From a virus, in the IMG/VR virus record IMGVR_UViG_3300045051_000175, positions 1-35,355 of that record: a DNA stretch of 35,355 bases; one strand, given 5' to 3'. Below, piece by piece: positions 11,904 to 35,355 of the stretch. Below the pieces are notes generated by a model. The model saw only the letters and a program-made list of their open reading frames with translations. It made no database searches and had not been told where the DNA came from. Within the stretch, counting starts at the first letter, position 1, and every line of letters begins with the position of its first letter. The translations under genes were made by a program, and so were the position numbers.

Positions 11904-13958
11904 ATGACACGCTTTGAAGGACAAGTACTCACCCAAATCGGAACCCCGCTGAGTGGCACAACTGTCACCGTACGTGTGGCGAACGTTGGCGCTCCCGGCA
12001 CAGGCGCATTGGCTACGCTGTATTCTGACAACGGTGTGACCCCCACCACCAACCCGGTGACGGCGGACTCCAACGCCCGTTATTGGTTCTACATTGCCGA
12101 TGGCAAATACGACATCACGTTCAGCGGCACAGGCATCACCACTTACACGCGTGGGAACATTGAAATCGCTGATTTGACCTCAGCAAATTCCGGTGGGTCT
12201 GATTGGGCAGCTAACAAAGTCAACGTTACTACCGGGGTGTACATCGGCGCTACCCCGTCCCTCACGGGAGCCATCGGCCTTTCCAACGGCGGTACGGTTA
12301 AGTCTAGGAACGCTGCAAACTCTGCGGACATTACTTTGATGTCACTGGACGCTACCAATGTCCTGAATCTGTATGGTACGGGTTTATTGGTAGACAGCAG
12401 CGGTAACGTAGCTATCGGTGGTACTGCGGCGTCTGCTGAGAAATTCCTTGTGAAGGGTTTGCAACGCCTGACCGGGATGGGTACGAGTCCGGCTTACGGC
12501 TCCTTGATGTTCAACTCTTCTGCCTTTTTGAGCGCAGGTTCCCGCCGCAGGTTACTTGTGAATTGGTTGTCTGGGCGTAAATTCGCTATCATCCGTGGGA
12601 CGGATGCTTCAACTGACCCGACGATGGATGGCGGTGGGAATATCACGGCAGGAACGGCGGATTTCCTCATTGACGAAACGGGCATAGTTGAGATTCCAAA
12701 TCGTTTGCTAATTGGTGGGGGCACCAACTCATCGCCCAACAGCATTTACTTCGGAACTTCAAATCCTCCATTTATTTTCGTAGACCAGATAAACACTGGT
12801 ACTCAAATACTCACGGTGCAAGCGGGGCGTGGGTCTGCCTCGTATGGTGGGAGCCTTATTCTGTATGGGCACGCTCATGGGACGAATCCGGGATGGGTAA
12901 GAGCGGGAATTTCTAACGGCTCTGGTGGAAAGTTTGCGGTCAATAGCCAAGCCCTCGGTGGTGGAACCGACGTATTTACGGTTACTGCTGCTGGTGACGG
13001 TGTTTTTGCGTCGGACGTTACTGCTACCGGGCTTATTGTTAGCGGGGCAATTTCACACGCAGGAACCGTTCGATACATTGATGCTGGCGGTGGAACAGGT
13101 ATTCAGTACAATGTTCCAACGAGTGCAGCCCATAAGTTTTCTATAAACGGCGTAACCAAGTTACAACTTGACGGAGCCGTACGATGTTTTGCCGCAGCGG
13201 GAACCAATTCAGCAGTTCTTTTGTCCGGCTCTGACACGGCGTATCACATAGTTCAAGCGACAAGTACGGGCGGAAACGGCATCTTTGGGGTTAACACATC
13301 AACTGGTACTGGATTGTTGGCAAACGCCACGGCATATTCTGCTATCTTAGGGTCGCTCAATGCTACTCCTCTGGAATTGTTTACCAACACTGTTGTCCGC
13401 ATTAAGATTGCGGATGCAGGAACAACGTTCTACACCCCTGCCGACAAGGTGGGCACAGCCTCCATCATAACGGACTCTGCTGGCATCAACACCACAGAGA
13501 CGGTCGTTGTCAAGAGTGGGACTCTTGCCGCCAACAGGCTAGTGGCAGGTACGGTAATCAGGGCTGTCTTAGAGGGCACCTGCACAGCCAGTGCAGCCAA
13601 CACCAGCACGTTCCAGATTCGCATAGGCACGGCGGGTACAACAGCGGACACCCTTGTTTTCTCTGGTGTGACCGCTGCTTCGGCGGTTACAGGGACGGCA
13701 GTTCCCTTCCGCGCAATCCTTGAACTGACCGTGAGAACCGTAGGCGTCAGCGCGACGGCGACGGGTTTCTTGACCATCCAGACAACCGGAGGCACCGCAA
13801 CAGGCATTTCGACCATCCCGGTGCAGGTCATTTTGCCTACCATGACAGCCTTCAACACCACAACGGCCAGCAACATCATCTCCGCTACTTACAAGTCGGC
13901 GGCAACCACCACCACCTGCACATTCAAGCAGGCGTTCATTGAGGTAGTGTACCTCTAA
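11904..13958 (+). CDS. Tail fibre-like protein
   Basis: The 684-residue protein is rich in Gly, Thr, Ser, Ala and Asn and almost free of Cys and charged helices, as in beta-structured fibres. Residues 1-95 form a domain often found at the start of phage fibres and tip proteins (GTPLSGTTVTVRVAN, then ATLYSDNG, NPVTADSNARYWFYIADGKYD). The middle has repeated VSGAI / GTAAS style turns similar to trimeric fibre shafts, and the last 170 residues form a beta-rich head (TSTFQIRIGTAGTTADTLVF). It probably contacts the host surface. No chaperone or endosialidase motif was seen. Fibre genes directly after the tape measure and before the hub are less usual. Confidence 0.72.
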   Translation: MTRFEGQVLTQIGTPLSGTTVTVRVANVGAPGTGALATLYSDNGVTPTTNPVTADSNARYWFYIADGKYDITFSGTGITTYTRGNIEIADLTSANSGGSDWAANKVNVTTGVYIGATPSLTGAIGLSNGGTVKSRNAANSADITLMSLDATNVLNLYGTGLLVDSSGNVAIGGTAASAEKFLVKGLQRLTGMGTSPAYGSLMFNSSAFLSAGSRRRLLVNWLSGRKFAIIRGTDASTDPTMDGGGNITAGTADFLIDETGIVEIPNRLLIGGGTNSSPNSIYFGTSNPPFIFVDQINTGTQILTVQAGRGSASYGGSLILYGHAHGTNPGWVRAGISNGSGGKFAVNSQALGGGTDVFTVTAAGDGVFASDVTATGLIVSGAISHAGTVRYIDAGGGTGIQYNVPTSAAHKFSINGVTKLQLDGAVRCFAAAGTNSAVLLSGSDTAYHIVQATSTGGNGIFGVNTSTGTGLLANATAYSAILGSLNATPLELFTNTVVRIKIADAGTTFYTPADKVGTASIITDSAGINTTETVVVKSGTLAANRLVAGTVIRAVLEGTCTASAANTSTFQIRIGTAGTTADTLVFSGVTAASAVTGTAVPFRAILELTVRTVGVSATATGFLTIQTTGGTATGISTIPVQVILPTMTAFNTTTASNIISATYKSAATTTTCTFKQAFIEVVYL

Positions 13959-13971
13959 AGGAGTTGGGACT

Positions 13972-14331
13972 GTGATTAACCTTGACGCTACAAAAGTCAA
14001 AGCGTTTCTTGAGGGCGCGGTGACGGTGGAAACCGTAGACAAAGCTGCGGTGACGGACATAAGGTTCAACTACGACCGGAACACTGTTTCCATTTGGGTC
14101 AATTACGGAGCCTTGGTGTCCAGTGCTCTTTCCGAGAGTAACCGGGCTGCTCCCTTGTTGTTAGAGGTTGACCTCACCACAGGGGACGTACGCTCTGAGG
14201 GACAAGTTCTGGGCACGCTTTCGCCAGCACAGCTTACGAGTTTCCAGAATACAGCCAAGAGCTTGCGGAACAGCGCAGAGACTTTCTTGGTCAACGTCGG
14301 CTTGGTTGTCGGCACACAAACAGCTTGGTAA
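13972..14331 (+). CDS. Unknown 119-aa protein between fibre and hub genes
   Basis: A GTG start with AAAGGAG upstream opens a 119-residue frame: an N-terminal alpha/beta part (VKAFLEGAVTVETVDKAAV), a beta hairpin (NTVSIWVNYGALV), and a helical end (LSPAQLTSFQNTAKSLRNSAETFL). No membrane segment. It sits 13 bases after the fibre gene and 13 bases before the hub gene, so it probably belongs to tail-tip assembly. No family recognised. Confidence 0.7.
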   Translation: MINLDATKVKAFLEGAVTVETVDKAAVTDIRFNYDRNTVSIWVNYGALVSSALSESNRAAPLLLEVDLTTGDVRSEGQVLGTLSPAQLTSFQNTAKSLRNSAETFLVNVGLVVGTQTAW

Positions 14332-14344
14332 TCACTGAGGGCTT

Positions 14345-17300
14345 ATGAACATCACGGTACTTCAAAAAAGCGGTCTGACCACCCCGGAGAGCCGCAGTGC
14401 GCCGAATATCCCTTTGGATATGTCGAGCGCCGTGAGCTTGACAGCTTCGCTGCTGTTCCAGAGCACGGCGGCGGGGACGAACTCAGACTACATCAAGTAC
14501 CTCTTTGAGAAGCCTGTCAAGACCGATGTTCGCAACGAGCCTACCACGCTGGACTTCGCCCTCGTGAATTGGGACGGCAACCTGCAACTGCTGCATAGAG
14601 GGAACTACATCGCCCTCAGCACGGTTACCTATCCTAACTGGTTCACTGGCTACATCATCAACGAACCTGAGTTGGCGTACCTCGGAACCACCAAGCGGGC
14701 AGGCGTCATCATCCCGGTGTGGGGCTATGTGTACCAAGCTACGGACGCCACGTTCATTTTGAACCAGCAGCCTCTTGGCCTCATGCCCCCGTTCGTGAAC
14801 ACGACTCAGGGGGCCATTCTTCGCGCCCTCGCGCAACGTATGCAGCCTAACAACTTCAACGTAGCACAGGTGCAGGACGGCAAAGCGGTAGCTAGGTACA
14901 TCGTAGCCCCGGAGAAGTATTTCTCGGATGTTGTGAAGGAGTTTTCCGAGGCTTCTTACTATCGCTTCTACGCTCTCGCCAAGTCTCTGTTCTTTGAACC
15001 CGCAGCTAGCTCTCCTGCGAACCTCATCATTGACGGGAATGACAAGCACTTCACTCCCGCCGCGCTGACCATCAGTGCCGCGAAAGACCAGATATTCAAT
15101 GACGCTATCGTGCTCGGCGGCATAGAGCCTCAAGGCTACATGAACGAGTGGTTTTTGGGAGACGGATACACGGCTCGGTTCCCCCTCGTTTCCAGTGTCT
15201 ACGGCGCTGATAGCTCCATACTGTTGGACGATGATTTTGGTGCGTCCAACATTGACACTGCAAAGTGGTCAGTGTATGACACGGTGAACAACTGGCTACG
15301 GGTGTACAACGGCTTTCTCAACGCTGTGGGTGGGGACGCGGACGGCAACTACAGGTCTTACCTGACCTCTGCGAACCTGCTGCCGATGGAGGGTTCCCTG
15401 CGGCTGACCCACGGCGAGTACGACTTCGTTTCCGCTTCTAGCGGCATCATCTGCGGACTGTGGTCTGGCGCTCCCAACGCTTCTTACGCGGGGTGTATGT
15501 ATGCCATCGCGTGCTCTAAGAATGGCTCTGCCACGGTGTTGAACCCTGTGGCGGGCGGAAGCTTGGATGTCACACAGAGCTTCACGGTGGACTACACGAA
15601 GCGGTATGTGCTGCGTACCCTTGTTTCTTTTTCCAACGCCACCCGCCTTACCAGCCACTACTCTTACTTGAACTCTGGTGGAACAGTGGGCAGCTATGGG
15701 GGAGGCTCCACAGCGGACACGGCGACTTACCAGACCGTCATTGTGGAGATTGACCCGACCACCGGGAACATAACGAACACCGTACATTGGCAGAATGCAA
15801 ATGTTGCACTGTCACAAAACCAGTACTTTGCCTACTACGTGCCTTTGGCTTTGAACGACCTGCACTGCACTGTGACGGGTGTCACTATCAGCACACCGAT
15901 GCAGGCGCAGTTGAGCATCCTGTACAAGAACGGGCTTGGGTACACACTACAAGGTTCTGGTGCCGGAATCATAGGCACGGCGGACGCTTGTCAGTTTGTG
16001 TACCAGAACCAGCCCGGAAACGGTTCCATAGTGTGCAGGGTCACGGGCTTGCTGAACACCAACGCGGACGCCAAGGCGGGACTCATGGTTCGCCAGAGCA
16101 CTACGGCAGGCGATGCGATGGTGGGGATTTTTGTCACGCCTTCAAGCGGAGTGAAGTTCGTCACGCGCACCACGGCAGACGCATCCGCAACCGTTACCAC
16201 TGTTGCAGGCGTCGTTGCCGATGTCTGGCTTAAGCTTTCTTCGATGAGTGGGCAGTTTTCAGGGTACTACTCTCTGGATGGCGCTACTTGGATTCAGGTG
16301 GGCACAACCACGGCCATAGACATGAGCGTCAAGCTCATGGGCTTGGCGGCTACTGCCACGAACAACAGCTTGCTTACCACAGCCGTGTTTGACCATGTGA
16401 TGACTCCTGCGGCCTCTACGACGTGGGTGAGCGTGGATGTTGGCTCTGTAGGGCTGGCTGGAAGCGCCCTCAGTACGGGGGTCATGGCAGAGAACGGTGT
16501 GTCTGCATGGACTCCGCAACTTGTAGGCCCAAACGAGATTGACTCTTTAGATGGCCAGTCCCCTATCGCAACCATTACCGACTCAAACTCAGGGGCTACG
16601 ACGCGAAACAGCACGCTTGGGTCTGTCATGTATAACCCCGGAAGCGCGGTGTTGCAGTTCTTCAAAGACTCTACACAGCAGGTTACACAGGTTCCTCAGC
16701 CGGGAGATTTCGTACACCTGACCTACCGCAGGGCAGGGGCAGCCATCGCCCGTGTTTCCAACTTAGCGGCTGTCGTATCCGAAGCAAGTGCGTGGGGAGA
16801 CATTGGTTTCCGCACCATCACAAAGAGGGACTTCAACCCTCTTCCTCGCACCTCGGCAGAGTGTGAACTCGCCGCTGCTGCTCTAGTGCAGGACATGGGT
16901 TACCAGCATTACGAAGGAACCTACAAATGCACAAACCTGTACAGCGTTGCGGGTCATCCGGTGACAGGCGCGCTTTTGACGTTTCAGAATCCGAGAGCAG
17001 GCTTTCCGGCTATTCCTGCCGAAGTAATCACTCAAGTGACGACCACGCTGGTCTCTACCAAGCCCCGCGAAGTCTTCGAGCATGAGATTAACTTTGGCAG
17101 ACCGGACAAGGTTCAACAACTGCTTACCGGGTTCAGCCAGCCTACGGATGTGTTCATGCCGCAGGACACGGCGGAGATTCCTGACACATTCGACCTCGCC
17201 TCCCTTGGCAGCACAACCGTGCCGGATGTGGTTGCACCCACGCTTGGAAGTTGGGACACCAATTATCTGTACTTCTCCACGAACCAAGCGCCTCCGTCAG

Positions 17301-18673
17301 GGGGCGGGTTTGAGATTCGCTACACTGACGAGAGTTGGGGAGCGGACGACGCCAAGAACCTTGTCACGCGCACCACAGGGCAGACATTCCAAGTGCCCAG
17401 AACTGCACGTGGGAAGATTTGTTTTGTGCGCGGCTACGACGCCAGAAATAAACTGCTCTATTCAGAAGACTTCACGCAATCCGCATGGAGTAAGGGTTCT
17501 GCGGCCACGGTTACGAACAGCACAATAACCAACCCTGACGCAGATGTCTCGCAGATTTCGGCCATAGCTTTTGCGAGTACAGCCGAAGCAACTACTTTCG
17601 TCCTCCAACAACTAACCATTCCCGTTGACAGCACCACTGGTGAGTTCAGTCTTTCTGTCAAAGGCACGGCTGGAAACAAAGTGCGTGTGGCTTTGGTTAC
17701 CACCAGTGGTGGCGCTTACCTTGCTTACACGGACGTTACTTTGACTGGTGGATGGCAAAGAGTTACTGTCACCTACACAGGCGGTGCGGGCGCTCCGGGT
17801 AATTTTGCGTGCCTGATTAACAACGTTCCCGGCTCGGTGCAAACGGTTTATGTGACCAGAGCTTCCTTTGAGCTTGCCACAACTGAGACCTTGTATTGCA
17901 AGACGATGGCTACCGCGTATGGCGCAACCTCTCGCTTTGCAGCAGGGTTGCACGTTGAGTTTCCGTTGCTTCCGCCAGCGCCTACAGCCACGATTGACTA
18001 CACGAACAAGCTGTCCCCAATCATTACCGTGGCGCTGCCTTCCGCAGCAGGAGATGTTTGGGGAGTAGAGATTCGTGCCAGCGACAATACTACGGTTCTC
18101 TACCACAAGGACTTGACAGCGACGGACTTTGTTCCTACGTTCACCGCCGACAACAGTGTGGCTCTGACTAGGAACTTGTCTTACTACGTGTACACGTACA
18201 ACTTGTTGGGGGAGTTCAGCAGTAGCGGTTACAACGCCACTGCTACCATCCCCACCCCGGCCATCAGCGCAGGGCCAACGGTGGACGAGTTGACTAAGCT
18301 GCTGACATGGGCAGGAACCGATGCAAGTGGTTATCGAGTGGAGATTGACAAGGTTAGCATGGCGTTCGCAAGCGAGAGCGTCAATACGACCTCATCGAAT
18401 CCCTACTACGCACTCACGGACACGGACTTCTTTTTCCAGAGGTACTTCCGTATCACTCCGTACGATGCGTTGGGTGATGGAACGCCAGCAACGGGTAGCC
18501 ATGTTTACACACCTGATGGTGTTGTGGAGTTCAATGGTAATGAGGCGCAAGTTGTCTCACCACCTACCACTCCAACCACCTCACCGACTGTGCCTGCAAC
18601 GTATGCGGACTACGCAAGCGACTATGTGACTCACAGTTGGGACGACTACAACGTGAACACCCTACACAACTAA
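14345..18673 (+). CDS. Large tail hub / tip protein with carbohydrate-binding-type insertions
   Basis: The 1442-residue protein starts with a hub-like part (about 1-290: KPVKTDVRNEPTTLDFALVN, PNWFTGYIINEPE, then a helical QGAILRALAQRMQ segment). A concanavalin/LamG-like stretch follows at about 290-520 (DDDFGASNIDTAKWSV), then a second, DUF1349-like domain at about 530-690 (IVCRVTGLLNTNADAKAGLMVRQS). A hub-like region returns at about 725-930 (LPRTSAECELAAAALVQDMGYQHYEGT). FN3-like segments and another lectin-type module (LLYSEDFTQSAWSKGSA, about 1035-1190) complete it. So the hub appears split by glycan-binding-type domains. It likely forms the tail tip and adheres to the host. Confidence 0.75.
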   Translation: MNITVLQKSGLTTPESRSAPNIPLDMSSAVSLTASLLFQSTAAGTNSDYIKYLFEKPVKTDVRNEPTTLDFALVNWDGNLQLLHRGNYIALSTVTYPNWFTGYIINEPELAYLGTTKRAGVIIPVWGYVYQATDATFILNQQPLGLMPPFVNTTQGAILRALAQRMQPNNFNVAQVQDGKAVARYIVAPEKYFSDVVKEFSEASYYRFYALAKSLFFEPAASSPANLIIDGNDKHFTPAALTISAAKDQIFNDAIVLGGIEPQGYMNEWFLGDGYTARFPLVSSVYGADSSILLDDDFGASNIDTAKWSVYDTVNNWLRVYNGFLNAVGGDADGNYRSYLTSANLLPMEGSLRLTHGEYDFVSASSGIICGLWSGAPNASYAGCMYAIACSKNGSATVLNPVAGGSLDVTQSFTVDYTKRYVLRTLVSFSNATRLTSHYSYLNSGGTVGSYGGGSTADTATYQTVIVEIDPTTGNITNTVHWQNANVALSQNQYFAYYVPLALNDLHCTVTGVTISTPMQAQLSILYKNGLGYTLQGSGAGIIGTADACQFVYQNQPGNGSIVCRVTGLLNTNADAKAGLMVRQSTTAGDAMVGIFVTPSSGVKFVTRTTADASATVTTVAGVVADVWLKLSSMSGQFSGYYSLDGATWIQVGTTTAIDMSVKLMGLAATATNNSLLTTAVFDHVMTPAASTTWVSVDVGSVGLAGSALSTGVMAENGVSAWTPQLVGPNEIDSLDGQSPIATITDSNSGATTRNSTLGSVMYNPGSAVLQFFKDSTQQVTQVPQPGDFVHLTYRRAGAAIARVSNLAAVVSEASAWGDIGFRTITKRDFNPLPRTSAECELAAAALVQDMGYQHYEGTYKCTNLYSVAGHPVTGALLTFQNPRAGFPAIPAEVITQVTTTLVSTKPREVFEHEINFGRPDKVQQLLTGFSQPTDVFMPQDTAEIPDTFDLASLGSTTVPDVVAPTLGSWDTNYLYFSTNQAPPSGGGFEIRYTDESWGADDAKNLVTRTTGQTFQVPRTARGKICFVRGYDARNKLLYSEDFTQSAWSKGSAATVTNSTITNPDADVSQISAIAFASTAEATTFVLQQLTIPVDSTTGEFSLSVKGTAGNKVRVALVTTSGGAYLAYTDVTLTGGWQRVTVTYTGGAGAPGNFACLINNVPGSVQTVYVTRASFELATTETLYCKTMATAYGATSRFAAGLHVEFPLLPPAPTATIDYTNKLSPIITVALPSAAGDVWGVEIRASDNTTVLYHKDLTATDFVPTFTADNSVALTRNLSYYVYTYNLLGEFSSSGYNATATIPTPAISAGPTVDELTKLLTWAGTDASGYRVEIDKVSMAFASESVNTTSSNPYYALTDTDFFFQRYFRITPYDALGDGTPATGSHVYTPDGVVEFNGNEAQVVSPPTTPTTSPTVPATYADYASDYVTHSWDDYNVNTLHN

Positions 18674-18718: not shown

Positions 18719-21601
18719 ATGCCAGCATCAACTCAAGTAGCTACCGTGGTGGTCGCAGGTCTCTCTACCCCCTCGCGGTACGTAGACAAGTTCATCGTGG
18801 AGTGCTACGCCGACTCAGGGCTGACTACGAAGGTCACCCTTCAAGCCACCGGAGCCGTGTGGGATACAGGCAGCAGTCAGAATGTGCAGAAGGGCATCCT
18901 TGTGTTCAAGGGGCTGGTCTACGGCACTACCTACTACTTCCGCGCAGGCGTGGCTTGCCCCATTAGTGGCACGATTGCGTGGTCGAGCACTTACTCCTTG
19001 GTTGCAGGGACGGCGACTGGCCCTTCTGCGGTCACCTACACTGGCAGCTACGAGGGTACAACGTCTGGCATCTACTACACGCTGACCCCGGCTAGCGTGC
19101 CCTCTGATATTGACCACTACGACTTTGCTTTTACCTTGGATGGCAGCGTTCCGGCGTCTTCGTCCCTGCCCGCAGGTTCTATTTCTCCGGGCACCACTTT
19201 GACCTTCTTCGTTGGCGCGAAGCCCGGAGACCGGGTGACAACCTACGTACGCGCCACCAACACTTCGCAGCAACGCCAAGTCTGGACGAGCTTGGGCACT
19301 GTTGGAATCATGGCTGTGCCGAACGACGCCATCGTCCACGTGGGCACCTCTCCCGGCACCGGGGACAACTATTCGTATCGCCAGTTTTCTACCGCTACTT
19401 ACGCCATCGTAACAGGTGACAAGCTTGAGTACGACGTGTGGTTCGACCCCTCTTGCCCTGAGTTCAAGGGAGGCGTGGACTTCAACTACACTTCCCCGTC
19501 TGCGAACTTACGCGCCTCTGGTCTGAGTGACCAGAACGGTAAGGCAGTATTGCAGAGCACGGACTTGACCACCTACGCCAAAGGCCGTTGGTATCACCGT
19601 GAGGTGAGTCTTACGTCCTTGAATGGCAAGACTATTCAGAATTGGGCTACCTTCCTTGAAGGGGACGCCTCTGGTGCGTACAAGGCAAAGTTTGCGAACA
19701 TCCGCATCACCAACGGCAATACGCTTAAGCTCGACGTGTTTTCGACGTTTGGCATCGCTACCACTACGGTGTGGACGAACGGCCCCGGCTCCGGGGAAAC
19801 CTACACAAGTGTCACGGTTCACACTGCGGATGTCTCTCTCGGCTCTATCAACACTGCACAGCTAATCAGCAACGCGGTGACGGGGGACATCGCTGCTTTG
19901 ACGGCTTCGGCGCGGGATGTGAACGTCAACCTCTTTGGGAATCCTCAGATGAGTGCGACTCCCGGCACGGTTCTTTCTGCCGCTGCCGTGGGCACTTTGG
20001 AAAGCTGGACATATAGGCAGGACGGGACTAGCCCGACCGACACTCCTGAATACCGCAACGGCGGGGAAGTTCGCATTCCCAAGATTACCGCCTCTGGCGG
20101 GTCTTATGTCTCTGTGGGGCAGACGAAGAATTACAAGCGTTTCTTCCCCGGCCTCTACTACGCTTTGCGCGTGTGGGTGAGGAAAATCTCAAGCGACCCT
20201 ACACCTAACGGCAACTTCAACATTGTTATGCGGGCGTATGATTCTAGCAATGTCTTAGTCAGCACTCAGACGATTGCTACGCAGGCGGCATCAGGCATTA
20301 CGAGCACGCCGACGCTGGTGTGGGGCACTTTTATCTGGAACCTTGTTTCTGGTGCTCAGTACTACTACTTAGCGTTTGAGAGCACAAGCACTAACGTAGA
20401 CCTGTATATCACGCAGGCCATGTTGAACCGTGGCAAGCAGGTGTCTGAATACACCGAGGCAACTTCCTTGGTTGATGTGGCGCAGTATGCCTATGAGGGG
20501 TATGCGTTTGTCAACGACGGCTTCACTGGTTCCAACAGCACCGCACTGGCATCCCATTACCCGGACACTGCTGGTTTTGAATGGGTAAAGAACCTCATAA
20601 GTGGTACTGGCGGCTTGGAAATTCAAACCAACGCCGCGTATCACAACGCCTCTGCGGTCACGTGCTTGGTACTCTATAACAACCGCAGACCCGCTTTGGG
20701 TAATGGTTATGCTGTGCAAGCGGACGTAGTTGTTACTGGCACTGGCACCACTAACCAAGTGGGTGTCATGGGCAGATACCGCGACACCAGCAACTTTTAT
20801 ACCGCGTATCTCCGTGCAGACTTGGCCTTGGTCTTGGATAAGAAGGTGGCAGGAGTCACAACCAACTTGCAGACCGTAGCAGGCATGAGTGGTGCAAGTG
20901 GGACAGTCAAGCTGGTGCTCACGGACAACACCCAAAAGGTGTACTTCAATGGCGTTTTGAAGATTAGTCAGACCGACAGCGCCTTGGCTTTTGTAAATAC
21001 TGAGATGGCGGGCCTGTATTCACAGGTGTCCGCTACAGGAAACCATAACACGGCAGATAATTTCACTGCGACCTACGTACAGAATGTGGGTACTCCTCCT
21101 GACCCTCCCCCGCCTCCCGGTGGTGGCGGCGGCGGCGGAGACCCTGATGGAGGGTGTTGCGTTGGCAGGACGCCTATAACAACCAGAGCAGGCGACCAAG
21201 CGTTACATGACCTGTGGCTCAAATTTACGTTGCAGGAGTGGACTGACAGCGACGACTTGCTGACCTACGATTGGGTTGCAGGTGTTTGGGCGTACCGAAA
21301 GCCTGACAATATGTGGCTGTCGTCTGTGCGTAGCACTCTCAAGGTAACACTTGAGGGCGGTTCGTTGAACCAGTGCTCCGATGACCACGGGATTTTCCAT
21401 AGCCTTGCTGAGATGGATTGGGACAGGATGGGAAACATCTCTGTTGGTAGTCTTTGCGACACCGTAGAGGGTGTGCAGCCAGTGGAGAGCTTAGAGGTGG
21501 TGGGAGGCGACACCGTTGTTTACCACATCTCTATTCCGCCATCTTGTTTGTATGTGGCGGACGGAATCTTATGCCACAACAACCTTAAGGCACCGCCATA
21601 A
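18719..21601 (+). CDS. Tail adhesin-like protein with C-terminal Hint (intein-like) domain
   Basis: The 960-residue protein has FN3-like and jelly-roll-like beta regions over about residues 1-640 (for example FFVGAKPGDRVTTYVRATN, KLDVFSTFG), a laminin/concanavalin-like domain at about 640-785 (FVNDGFTGSNSTALASHYPD, then YTAYLRADLALVLDKKVAG), a Pro then Gly run (about 790-807), and a Hint domain at 813-954. The Hint signs are Cys813 followed by VGRTPITT, the block-B-like SDDHGIFH, the W..M..ISVGSLCDTV segment, and the end YVADGILCHNN with His953-Asn954. The +1 residue is Asn955, not Cys/Ser/Thr, and only six residues follow. No endonuclease insert. Probably displayed at the tail tip and self-cleaving at one or both ends; whether it is active is unknown. 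Confidence 0.78.
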   Translation: MPASTQVATVVVAGLSTPSRYVDKFIVECYADSGLTTKVTLQATGAVWDTGSSQNVQKGILVFKGLVYGTTYYFRAGVACPISGTIAWSSTYSLVAGTATGPSAVTYTGSYEGTTSGIYYTLTPASVPSDIDHYDFAFTLDGSVPASSSLPAGSISPGTTLTFFVGAKPGDRVTTYVRATNTSQQRQVWTSLGTVGIMAVPNDAIVHVGTSPGTGDNYSYRQFSTATYAIVTGDKLEYDVWFDPSCPEFKGGVDFNYTSPSANLRASGLSDQNGKAVLQSTDLTTYAKGRWYHREVSLTSLNGKTIQNWATFLEGDASGAYKAKFANIRITNGNTLKLDVFSTFGIATTTVWTNGPGSGETYTSVTVHTADVSLGSINTAQLISNAVTGDIAALTASARDVNVNLFGNPQMSATPGTVLSAAAVGTLESWTYRQDGTSPTDTPEYRNGGEVRIPKITASGGSYVSVGQTKNYKRFFPGLYYALRVWVRKISSDPTPNGNFNIVMRAYDSSNVLVSTQTIATQAASGITSTPTLVWGTFIWNLVSGAQYYYLAFESTSTNVDLYITQAMLNRGKQVSEYTEATSLVDVAQYAYEGYAFVNDGFTGSNSTALASHYPDTAGFEWVKNLISGTGGLEIQTNAAYHNASAVTCLVLYNNRRPALGNGYAVQADVVVTGTGTTNQVGVMGRYRDTSNFYTAYLRADLALVLDKKVAGVTTNLQTVAGMSGASGTVKLVLTDNTQKVYFNGVLKISQTDSALAFVNTEMAGLYSQVSATGNHNTADNFTATYVQNVGTPPDPPPPPGGGGGGGDPDGGCCVGRTPITTRAGDQALHDLWLKFTLQEWTDSDDLLTYDWVAGVWAYRKPDNMWLSSVRSTLKVTLEGGSLNQCSDDHGIFHSLAEMDWDRMGNISVGSLCDTVEGVQPVESLEVVGGDTVVYHISIPPSCLYVADGILCHNNLKAPP

Positions 21602-33189: not shown

Positions 33190-34845
33190 CTAAGAGCCGC
33201 AGGTTCCGGCTTTGGTTATGTCACACACATCGGCAGATTCGATGAAGACTTCCCCGACGTGCTTGATGGCGGTGCTGTACTTCACGGGTGTCAGCGGTTG
33301 CCCACCACGCGCCCCATCCGGGTAGCAGGTGATGCCTCGCAGCTTCGGTAAGTACTGCACCAGCATCTTCCCGAAAGTCTGCACCGTGTTGTCGTTGTTC
33401 AACTCGCTGCCCCACGAGGGCAGGTTGATGGTGGACGAAATGGCGTGGTCAACGTATTGCTGCATCCATGCTTGGAAGGCCACGCGGCGCTCAGGCTCCT
33501 CCGCGATGAGGTAGGCGTTCTCGATGTCGTCAGGGTTGATTCCCTGCTCCATCAGCTTGTGCGCCACCACCTCAATCTTGTACTGGAAGTTCCACGTGCT
33601 CCCCTTTGCGTATCTCCGCTTGTAGGCAGCGCAGAGCATCGGTTCGATGCCTGTCGTCGTCTCAGCGATGATGCCGATGGTGCCTGTGGGAGCGATAGCG
33701 CGGGTCTTTATCGGGCGGCTCAGTTCCCACTCGTCCGCATACTTTGCAGCGACTTCGGTGCTCGTGGCATAGATGGACATGAGCTTCGCCAACTCGTCGT
33801 CCGCTCCGTACTTCTTCCCGCGCAGGAGCAGCCATTCGTGGACTCCCATGAGGCCCAGACCCAGACGGCGGTTCTTGGTGCGTATCTGGTCAACCTTGGC
33901 GTAGGGCACGTCGCTATACACCGTACCCGCCAAGAGGAACGCCGTGGCCACCTCGACCACCGCCTTCATATCCTCTGGCGTGCTGATGCGCGCTAGGTTG
34001 ATGCTGCCAAGGTTGCAAACATCGGAGTCATCTGCTGAGGTAATCTCCGTGCAGGCGTTCCGCAGAGTCTCGTGTCGGTTTTTCCCGGTGTCTACGCTGA
34101 ATCCCGGCTCTGCGGTCTTGAGCATCTGCCGCACCGTCGCCCAATAGACCGACTGCGCGTGCGGGTGGCGGGGGTGCTTGTCGTCGTGGAACGCCTCGAA
34201 GAACTCGTCGTCCAACTGCACAGAGACGTTCGTGCCATCCAACGTCGCCGGGAAGTTGAAGTCCTTCGCCTTCAAGTCCCGGACTTCCGGCATCCAGTTC
34301 TTGATGGTGATGAACTTGTGCACGTCCGGGTGCTTCCATGACAGGCCAGCCCAAATCGCGGAGCGGCGCGTGCCACCCTGCATGATAAACCTGCCTGCCT
34401 CGTTGACCATCTGCATCAGGGCGAGAGGGCCAGTCGCCACCCCACCTGTCTTGCGAATCGGCTTTCCTTCCGGGCGTACCAAGGAGTAATCCACGCCGAT
34501 GCCTGCACCCGTCATCAAAGCCATAGATGACTTCTGCATCAACTCTGACCAGCCTTCTCGACTGTCTTCGGCGCGGAGCAGCAGGCAGTTTTGGACTTGG
34601 TGGAACGGTCGCCCTGCTGCGTACAAATACCGTCCACCGGGGATGAATTGCCGTGTCGCAATCCTGTGTGCTGTCTCATCAACGAGAGACTTCGGCGCAC
34701 CTACGGACTTGAGGATGACGCGGGCAACGCGGTTGGCGGTGTCCTGCCAACTCTCTTTGCCGCCTTCCTTCAAGTCATGCGCGTACTTTTGCACACGGAT
34801 GGTTTCTGCGAACGGCCCGAACTGCAACAACTTCGGGTCAATCAT
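33190..34845 (-). CDS. nrdJ: Class II (B12-dependent) ribonucleotide reductase
   Basis: The 551-residue enzyme turns ribonucleotides into deoxyribonucleotides. Visible residues: Cys87 in VQNCLLL and Cys277 in CNLGSINLA as the redox pair, Cys265 and Glu267 in NACTEI at the radical site, PTGTIGIIAETTTGIEP phosphate-binding loop, and a C-terminal Cys pair (Cys541 and Cys549, CDITKAGTCGS) for re-reduction. A single-chain form with no R2-like partner and no ATP cone suggests class II, needing adenosylcobalamin from the host. It is shorter than most cellular NrdJ. The start overlaps the recA stop (TAATG). Confidence 0.88.
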   Translation of the reverse strand: MIDPKLLQFGPFAETIRVQKYAHDLKEGGKESWQDTANRVARVILKSVGAPKSLVDETAHRIATRQFIPGGRYLYAAGRPFHQVQNCLLLRAEDSREGWSELMQKSSMALMTGAGIGVDYSLVRPEGKPIRKTGGVATGPLALMQMVNEAGRFIMQGGTRRSAIWAGLSWKHPDVHKFITIKNWMPEVRDLKAKDFNFPATLDGTNVSVQLDDEFFEAFHDDKHPRHPHAQSVYWATVRQMLKTAEPGFSVDTGKNRHETLRNACTEITSADDSDVCNLGSINLARISTPEDMKAVVEVATAFLLAGTVYSDVPYAKVDQIRTKNRRLGLGLMGVHEWLLLRGKKYGADDELAKLMSIYATSTEVAAKYADEWELSRPIKTRAIAPTGTIGIIAETTTGIEPMLCAAYKRRYAKGSTWNFQYKIEVVAHKLMEQGINPDDIENAYLIAEEPERRVAFQAWMQQYVDHAISSTINLPSWGSELNNDNTVQTFGKMLVQYLPKLRGITCYPDGARGGQPLTPVKYSTAIKHVGEVFIESADVCDITKAGTCGS

Positions 34846-35355
34846 TAAGCGGTCTGTTTTTCCTTAAGGGTCTTTACGAGTTTTGCGTAGGCTGCTTTGT
34901 CGTCCTTGATGAAGGCAACAAGCTTGTCGCGCCCCTGAAACCGTGCTCCGTCTAGGGTGTACCACGCGCCAGACTTCTCGATGCTTCCGATGGCTACAGC
35001 CGCGTCCACCAAGCTCCCTGCGCCGTCAAACCCGCCGTCGAACAGCAGGTCAACCTCACAGGCGCGGAAAGGGGCACCGACCTTGTTCTTGGCAGCCTTG
35101 ATTTTCACCTTGTTACCCACGGGCGTTTCTCCGTCCTTGATGGTGGAGATTCGCCGCACGTCGAGGCGCAGGCTGGCGTAGAACTTGAGGCCACGTCCAC
35201 CTGTGGTGGTCTCCGGGCTGCCGTACATGACGCCAATCTTCTCTCGAATCTGGTTGATGAAGACGAAGGTGGTGCTGCTCTTGCTCACGATGCCTGTCAG
35301 CTTCCGCAAGGCTTGCGACATGAGGCGGGCTTGCAGACCCACGTTGGAGTCTCCC
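34845..35355 (-). CDS. recA: RecA recombinase, C-terminal part (5' end outside window)
   Basis: The frame runs off the right edge; about 170 residues are visible. The sequence [57 protein letters not shown] and [17 protein letters not shown] covers the RecA core around the L1/L2 loops and the beginning of the C-terminal domain. It promotes DNA strand exchange and repair, and here probably serves phage recombination. The C-terminus is shorter than in the E. coli protein and lacks its acidic tail. Stop and nrdJ start overlap. Confidence 0.93.

Follow-up and report, generated by a model that had tools for sequence, protein, structure and literature searches.

Our analysis confirmed that the tail protein encoded at positions 18719–21601 of the window, i.e. 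of the whole 35,355-base record of an uncultured phage analysed here, ends in a full-length Hint domain without an endonuclease (residues 813–954 of 960). By analogy with known Hint proteins, this domain probably processes itself in the manner of an A-type bacterial intein-like (BIL) domain, and autocleavage would yield a mature adhesin ending in Gly812, a reading to which we assign a probability of about 0.6. The Hint fold and its chemistry are already known; Hints on phage tail proteins appear to be unstudied, and no description of them was found in the openly accessible literature searched.

The tail protein and its phage

The capsid, tail and later genes of the window are collinear with those of Tunturi_4 at 27–52% identity, and IMG/VR contig L003 is a second collinear relative. 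Tunturi_4 is a siphovirus of Tunturiibacter (Acidobacteriota), its morphology being documented in PMC11924767, and because of this kinship the host of the window phage probably belongs to the Acidobacteriota as well.

The gp15 homologue of Tunturi_4 (Table 1) immediately precedes the 960-residue ORF, whose residues 7–189 are 41% identical to Tunturi_4 gp16, a 'tail protein'. Gene order and N-terminal homology together point to a putative tail-tip adhesin. In the homologous tail proteins of Tunturi_4 and L003 (717 and 707 residues, respectively) the similarity ends at about residue 190 and no Hint is found; conservation is limited to the N-terminal region, the middle region and the Hint being without a homologue. 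Searches using either the Hint or the whole protein as query returned no relatives carrying the window Hint. Since both homologues lack it, the Hint appears to be specific to this lineage and to belong to a host-recognition protein that varies between phages. A Pro/Gly linker in front of the Hint had been part of the original prediction and is indeed present: 18 of the 25 residues at 788–812 are Gly or Pro, compared with a maximum of 7 per 25 elsewhere in the tail protein.

Neither Tunturi_4 nor L003 has a counterpart of the two ORFs of 684 and 119 aa (11904–14331) that separate the gp15 homologue from the small gene behind the tape measure gene, and the 684 aa ORF has no match in Pfam or PHROGs. 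RNA families and tRNAs were searched for in the window and none was found. At 33190–35342 (minus strand), an ORF for the large subunit of ribonucleotide reductase directly follows the UvsX-like ORF; in Tunturi_4 a small-subunit gene lies between the UvsX-like and large-subunit genes.

Table 1. Features of the window that bear on the Hint-ended tail protein
Feature	Position	Strand	Basis or remark
Virion structural protein, 1442 aa, Tunturi_4 gp15 homologue	14345..18673	+	Upstream of the tail protein ORF; anchors the tail module
ORF of the tail protein, 960 aa, with a conserved N-terminal region, a divergent middle, the Gly/Pro linker and the Hint at its C-terminus	18719..21601	+	
N-terminal region, aa 7-189, common to the Tunturi_4 and L003 tail proteins	18737..19285	+	
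Gly/Pro-rich linker, aa 788-812, QNVGTPPDPPPPPGGGGGGGDPDGG	21080..21154	+	Gly or Pro at 18/25 residues
Hint domain, aa 813-954, no endonuclease insert	21155..21580	+	Profile match, predicted fold
Cys813, block A, predicted nucleophile of the N-S acyl shift	21155..21157	+	Invariant in the Hint alignment
Block B, S887-D-D-H890: His B:10 kept, Ser instead of the usual Thr at B:7	21377..21388	+	
His936, block F position 4; Asp there in most splicing inteins sampled	21524..21526	+	
Block G, His953-Asn954, predicted Asn cyclisation site	21575..21580	+	
C-terminal tail NLKAPP, six residues; +1 is Asn955, not Cys/Ser/Thr	21581..21598	+	

A full-length Hint domain

The protein ends in GTPPDPPPPPGGGGGGGDPDGG-C813CVGRTPI...QCS887DDH890GIF...VVYH936ISIPPSCLYVADGILCH953N954-NLKAPP-stop, and both the coordinates and the motifs originally given for this end proved correct. 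Block A (Cys813-Cys814-V-G-R-T818-P-I) has the canonical spacing from C1 to T6. Blocks F and G can be read as V-Y-H936-I...Y-V-A-D-G-I-L-C-H953-N954, with Cys943 at the position of the block F His. Cys1, His B:10 and the terminal His-Asn are retained at about 20% identity.

Searches of Pfam, NCBIfam and PHROGs alone miss the domain, the best relevant match being Pfam Intein_splicing at E = 0.16, below the cut-off. A sequence search of solved structures returned five matches, four of them inteins at E = 0.1–0.6, and weak tblastn matches in named phages included the terminase TerL of ME3, where an intein is visible in the translation, and the intein-bearing SCTP-2 gp204. A further weak tblastn match in Kumao was rejected, as its translation contains neither block B nor block G.

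Because these library searches were weak, a Hint profile was built from viral contigs. In detail, Hints were gathered with a degenerate block G pattern, compact domains running from Cys1 to His-Asn were extracted, and 17 phage Hint/intein domains, excluding that of the window, were used for the profile; several of the His-Asn pattern matches were chance ones and were discarded (e.g. L027, L051, L077, L082 and L145). Residues 813–954 scored 52.0 bits over the full profile length, and the best of about 20,000 shuffles reached 10.1. Since the C-terminal motif had served to find most of the profile members, the test was repeated without the last 14 residues, which still gave 28.5 bits versus 9.7 for shuffles. 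When all six frames of the window were searched, residues 813–954 were the sole significant match.

A structure model made from the single sequence was uninformative (pLDDT 45), and the model from an alignment of 15 phage Hints reached a pLDDT of 93.2 and a pTM of 0.86. The latter matched solved Hint structures with Z scores of 15.5–20.5 over 121–142 residues, including the inteins Mtu RecA (20.5), VidaL (19.9) and gp41-1 (18.6), the BIL domains Tetrahymena BUBL BIL2 (18.4) and Clostridium thermocellum BIL 2lwy (17.8), and Hedgehog (1at0, 18.2); the scores to inteins and to BIL domains are nearly tied. As the alignment consists of Hints, the model depends on the sequence result and shows that the sequence fits the fold. 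Profile statistics and predicted fold together bear out the original claim of a Hint without an endonuclease, and the structure prediction proposed as a check agreed with it, although a good model needed the Hint alignment. With a predicted Hint fold and with blocks A, B, F and G following one another in the expected sequence, the domain has the features that define the Hint superfamily.

Predicted processing and its alternatives

A-type BIL domains were reportedly described by Amitai in 2003 and by Dassa in 2004. They are defined by a C-terminal His-Asn with a non-nucleophilic flanking residue (PMC4031507, PMC7765530), and here His953-Asn954 is followed by Asn955. The window Hint resembles them further in anatomy, sharing the predicted Hint fold, Cys1, the block B His and a mini size without an endonuclease, and like them it occupies a hypervariable region in a protein that is not conserved. 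The examples cited here sit in bacterial surface or secreted proteins such as FhaB (PMC3091684), whereas the window Hint follows a Gly/Pro linker at the end of a phage tail protein and has His at F:4 and Cys in place of the block F His.

Following BIL chemistry (PMC4031507, PMC7765530), Cys813, assisted by His890, would attack the Gly812-Cys813 peptide bond in an N-S acyl shift and form a thioester, while Asn954, assisted by His953, would cyclise and cut off NLKAPP. Since no Cys, Ser or Thr is present at +1, the splicing branch cannot form, and the thioester would instead have to react with water or a small thiol. The products would be a mature adhesin with the flexible end ...PPPPPGGGGGGGDPDGG and the released Hint. 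Cleavage might, for example, rid the protein of a bulky cap at its C-terminus while it trimerises or the tail is assembled, or thereafter; cleavage itself, its timing and its use are all inferred. Ser at B:7, His at F:4 and Cys943 make the site non-canonical, so that it could be slow or dead, and these substitutions may slow the predicted reaction.

Canonical splicing is very unlikely, because +1 is Asn and six residues follow Asn954, and the sequence agrees in this with the original prediction, which had also proposed cleavage or attachment to another molecule; either is chemically plausible by analogy. The closest solved folds and the weak sequence matches are those of class 1 inteins (Mtu RecA, VidaL, gp41-1). 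Unlike these, the window Hint has no nucleophile at +1 and no C-extein, and it does not interrupt a conserved site of an essential enzyme; six residues follow it, and the Tunturi_4 and L003 homologues contain no matching C-extein, so that neither a second extein nor an intein-free allele can be recognized. A splicing intein that has lost its C-extein through a frameshift, misassembly or a split gene would account for the intein-class fold and for inteins being the best structural matches. We regard this as highly improbable, as Asn occupies +1, both alternative frames beyond His-Asn are open only without a nucleophile at the junction, the insertion lies outside any conserved protein site and the relatives end without a C-extein. 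A class 3 intein was rejected by eye, Cys1 being present and F:4 being His rather than Cys, and a trans-splicing split intein was rejected because one chain holds both halves.

The main functional rival to cleavage is attachment through the thioester: instead of release, the Gly812 thioester would be passed to an amine, thiol or hydroxyl of another molecule, be it a second tail protein, a glycan or the surface of the host, and the adhesin would thereby be fixed covalently. Gly-Gly at the end of a long flexible linker makes a good acyl donor, and BIL domains can ligate via a free amine (PMC4031507). Hedgehog, which attaches cholesterol in this way and is among the structural matches given above, likewise has a C-terminal Hint, and in both proteins the N-terminal part, adhesive or signalling, would be left with a thioester at its end. 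The window Hint, however, keeps the intein-type His-Asn end, and with only six residues after it there is no sterol-recognition or acceptor-binding region, nor was a candidate acceptor found. Very different proteins and linkers carry terminal Hints elsewhere (see below), which also speaks against ligation, and we consider it unlikely here.

PT-HINT domains of polymorphic toxins offer another parallel, in that a Hint processes a long surface protein; unlike in these, no toxin domain follows the window Hint and there is no match to Pfam PT-HINT. Phage fibre C-termini often bear chaperone or receptor-binding domains. As the Hint occupies the extreme C-terminus of a tail protein, it might thus be unreactive, a folded domain that caps the end of the fibre or binds there. 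Such a role is distinctly improbable in our view, for it leaves the retention of both reaction centres unexplained, here as well as in other families.

Terminal Hints on other phage proteins

Known routes of phage tail protein maturation are intramolecular chaperones and proteases. The original prediction had suggested looking for the same Hint end on unrelated phage tail proteins, and this search was positive in viral contigs, Erwinia phages and NCTB. A scan of viral contigs for Gly runs followed by Cys gave at least 120 stretches, and those listed include at least 21 ORF-terminal Hints behind Gly/Pro linkers, which fall into at least 9 clusters at 40% identity; among them are L270 (...PPPPPPPPDGGGGGG-Hint-HNSTLKN) and L222 (...SPPSGGGGGG-Hint-HNFTAKL, with a Pfam Phage_Tail_Tip match). 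ORF-terminal Hints were also seen in L018/L166 (fibronectin III, PPGFF repeats and GG-Hint-HNLKI, next to a gene for a tail fibre that has an Mtd_N domain) and in L164 (GGYGGGGGGFR-Hint-HNQLHQHDYN, separated by 2 bases from a preceding tail-fibre gene). Proteins of marine-type viral contigs (L038:5730-7952, L130:68-2419, L143:703-3003, L151 and L158) contain 2–3 tandem Hints and all end in HNK-stop.

Among cultured phages, Hint-ending tail or virion proteins occur in the Erwinia jumbo phages Y3 (gp110), Yoloswag (gp103) and Alexandra (gp112) and in phage NCTB_132 (...YSGGGGGG-Hint-HNAPVDQKH); the GenBank annotation of Y3 gp110 reads 'putative phage tail protein, contains intein domain'. Like the window protein, these are tail-cluster proteins with a C-terminal Hint and a short tail, but they share no detectable sequence homology with it outside the Hint, and the Y3 family differs in having a collagen-like stalk and Thr at +1. 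Judged from sequence, the layout of Gly/Pro linker, Hint and short tail recurs in unrelated phages, on their tail or virion proteins.

The Gly-run set had been selected without regard to the active site; its viral members have both the His of block B and the His-Asn end, with one exception, L244, which has no His-Asn end. Among the 21 terminal phage Hints compared, +1 is non-nucleophilic in 18 and Cys, Ser or Thr in three, and the tail after His-Asn comprises 1–14 residues in every case. Asp occupies F:4 in 70 of 97 internal inteins with Cys, Ser or Thr at +1 versus about 2 of the 21 terminal Hints (the latter read by eye), a scarcity to be expected if splicing is not selected. In five unrelated terminal Hint families dN/dS was 0.03–0.21; these values come from pairs with measurable divergence, synonymous sites being near saturation in the Y3–Yoloswag pair, and the window copy, having no close homologue, is not among them. 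Such values indicate that terminal Hints on other phage proteins are maintained, and together with the +1 residue, the tail length and F:4 they support the suggestion that terminal phage Hints function without splicing. Lys or Arg occurs in 20 of the 21 short tails (e.g. LKI, LKM, FKL and NLKAPP), which may merely reflect the general enrichment of Lys at protein C-termini.

These data also bear on the main null explanation, namely that a mini-intein or BIL-like element has settled as a passenger, decaying or neutral, in a tolerant Gly-coding linker near the gene end. Hints flanked by Gly-run DNA indeed occur at both ends of many phage genes, the relatives of the window phage lack the Hint, and several of its catalytic positions are substituted. 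On the other hand, the window Hint has lost none of Cys1, His B:10 and His-Asn, there is no endonuclease for mobility, and analogous terminal Hints keep the same residues under purifying selection, so that a passenger seems rather improbable.

At least 72 Hints among the 120 stretches listed in the scan lie close to the N-terminus of phage proteins. The one N-terminal-Hint protein tested, L255:4461-8222 (minus strand), is a lambda gpJ-type tail tip (phrog_31, E = 4e-237). We put forward, tentatively and at somewhat less than even odds, that Hints are general self-processing modules of phages, placed behind Gly/Pro linkers at adhesin C-termini and gpJ-type tip N-termini, where they would set mature ends or attach proteins covalently via a Gly thioester; the window would then exemplify a way of maturing host-recognition proteins that is so far undescribed. 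If true, this Hint-based route would add a mechanism of tail protein maturation, the predicted ends of many host-recognition proteins would change, and fibres would carry natural C-terminal thioester donors. As Y3, Yoloswag and Alexandra are cultured and have the same layout, the reading is directly testable.

In L255, L183, L192, L216, L235 and others, the Hint near the N-terminus lies between two Gly-rich linkers, e.g. TKRIIGAGGGGG-Hint-HN-AGLGSKIIGAGGGGGGKGGGG-. Proteins on the bacterial contigs L289, L290, L298, L330, L336, L348, L350, L354 and L374 begin with an apparent signal peptide ending in ARGGGGC, followed by 1–3 (often 2–3) tandem Hints; they have a C-terminal region of about 440 aa in common and come from Planctomycetota, Syntrophales, Verrucomicrobia and others.
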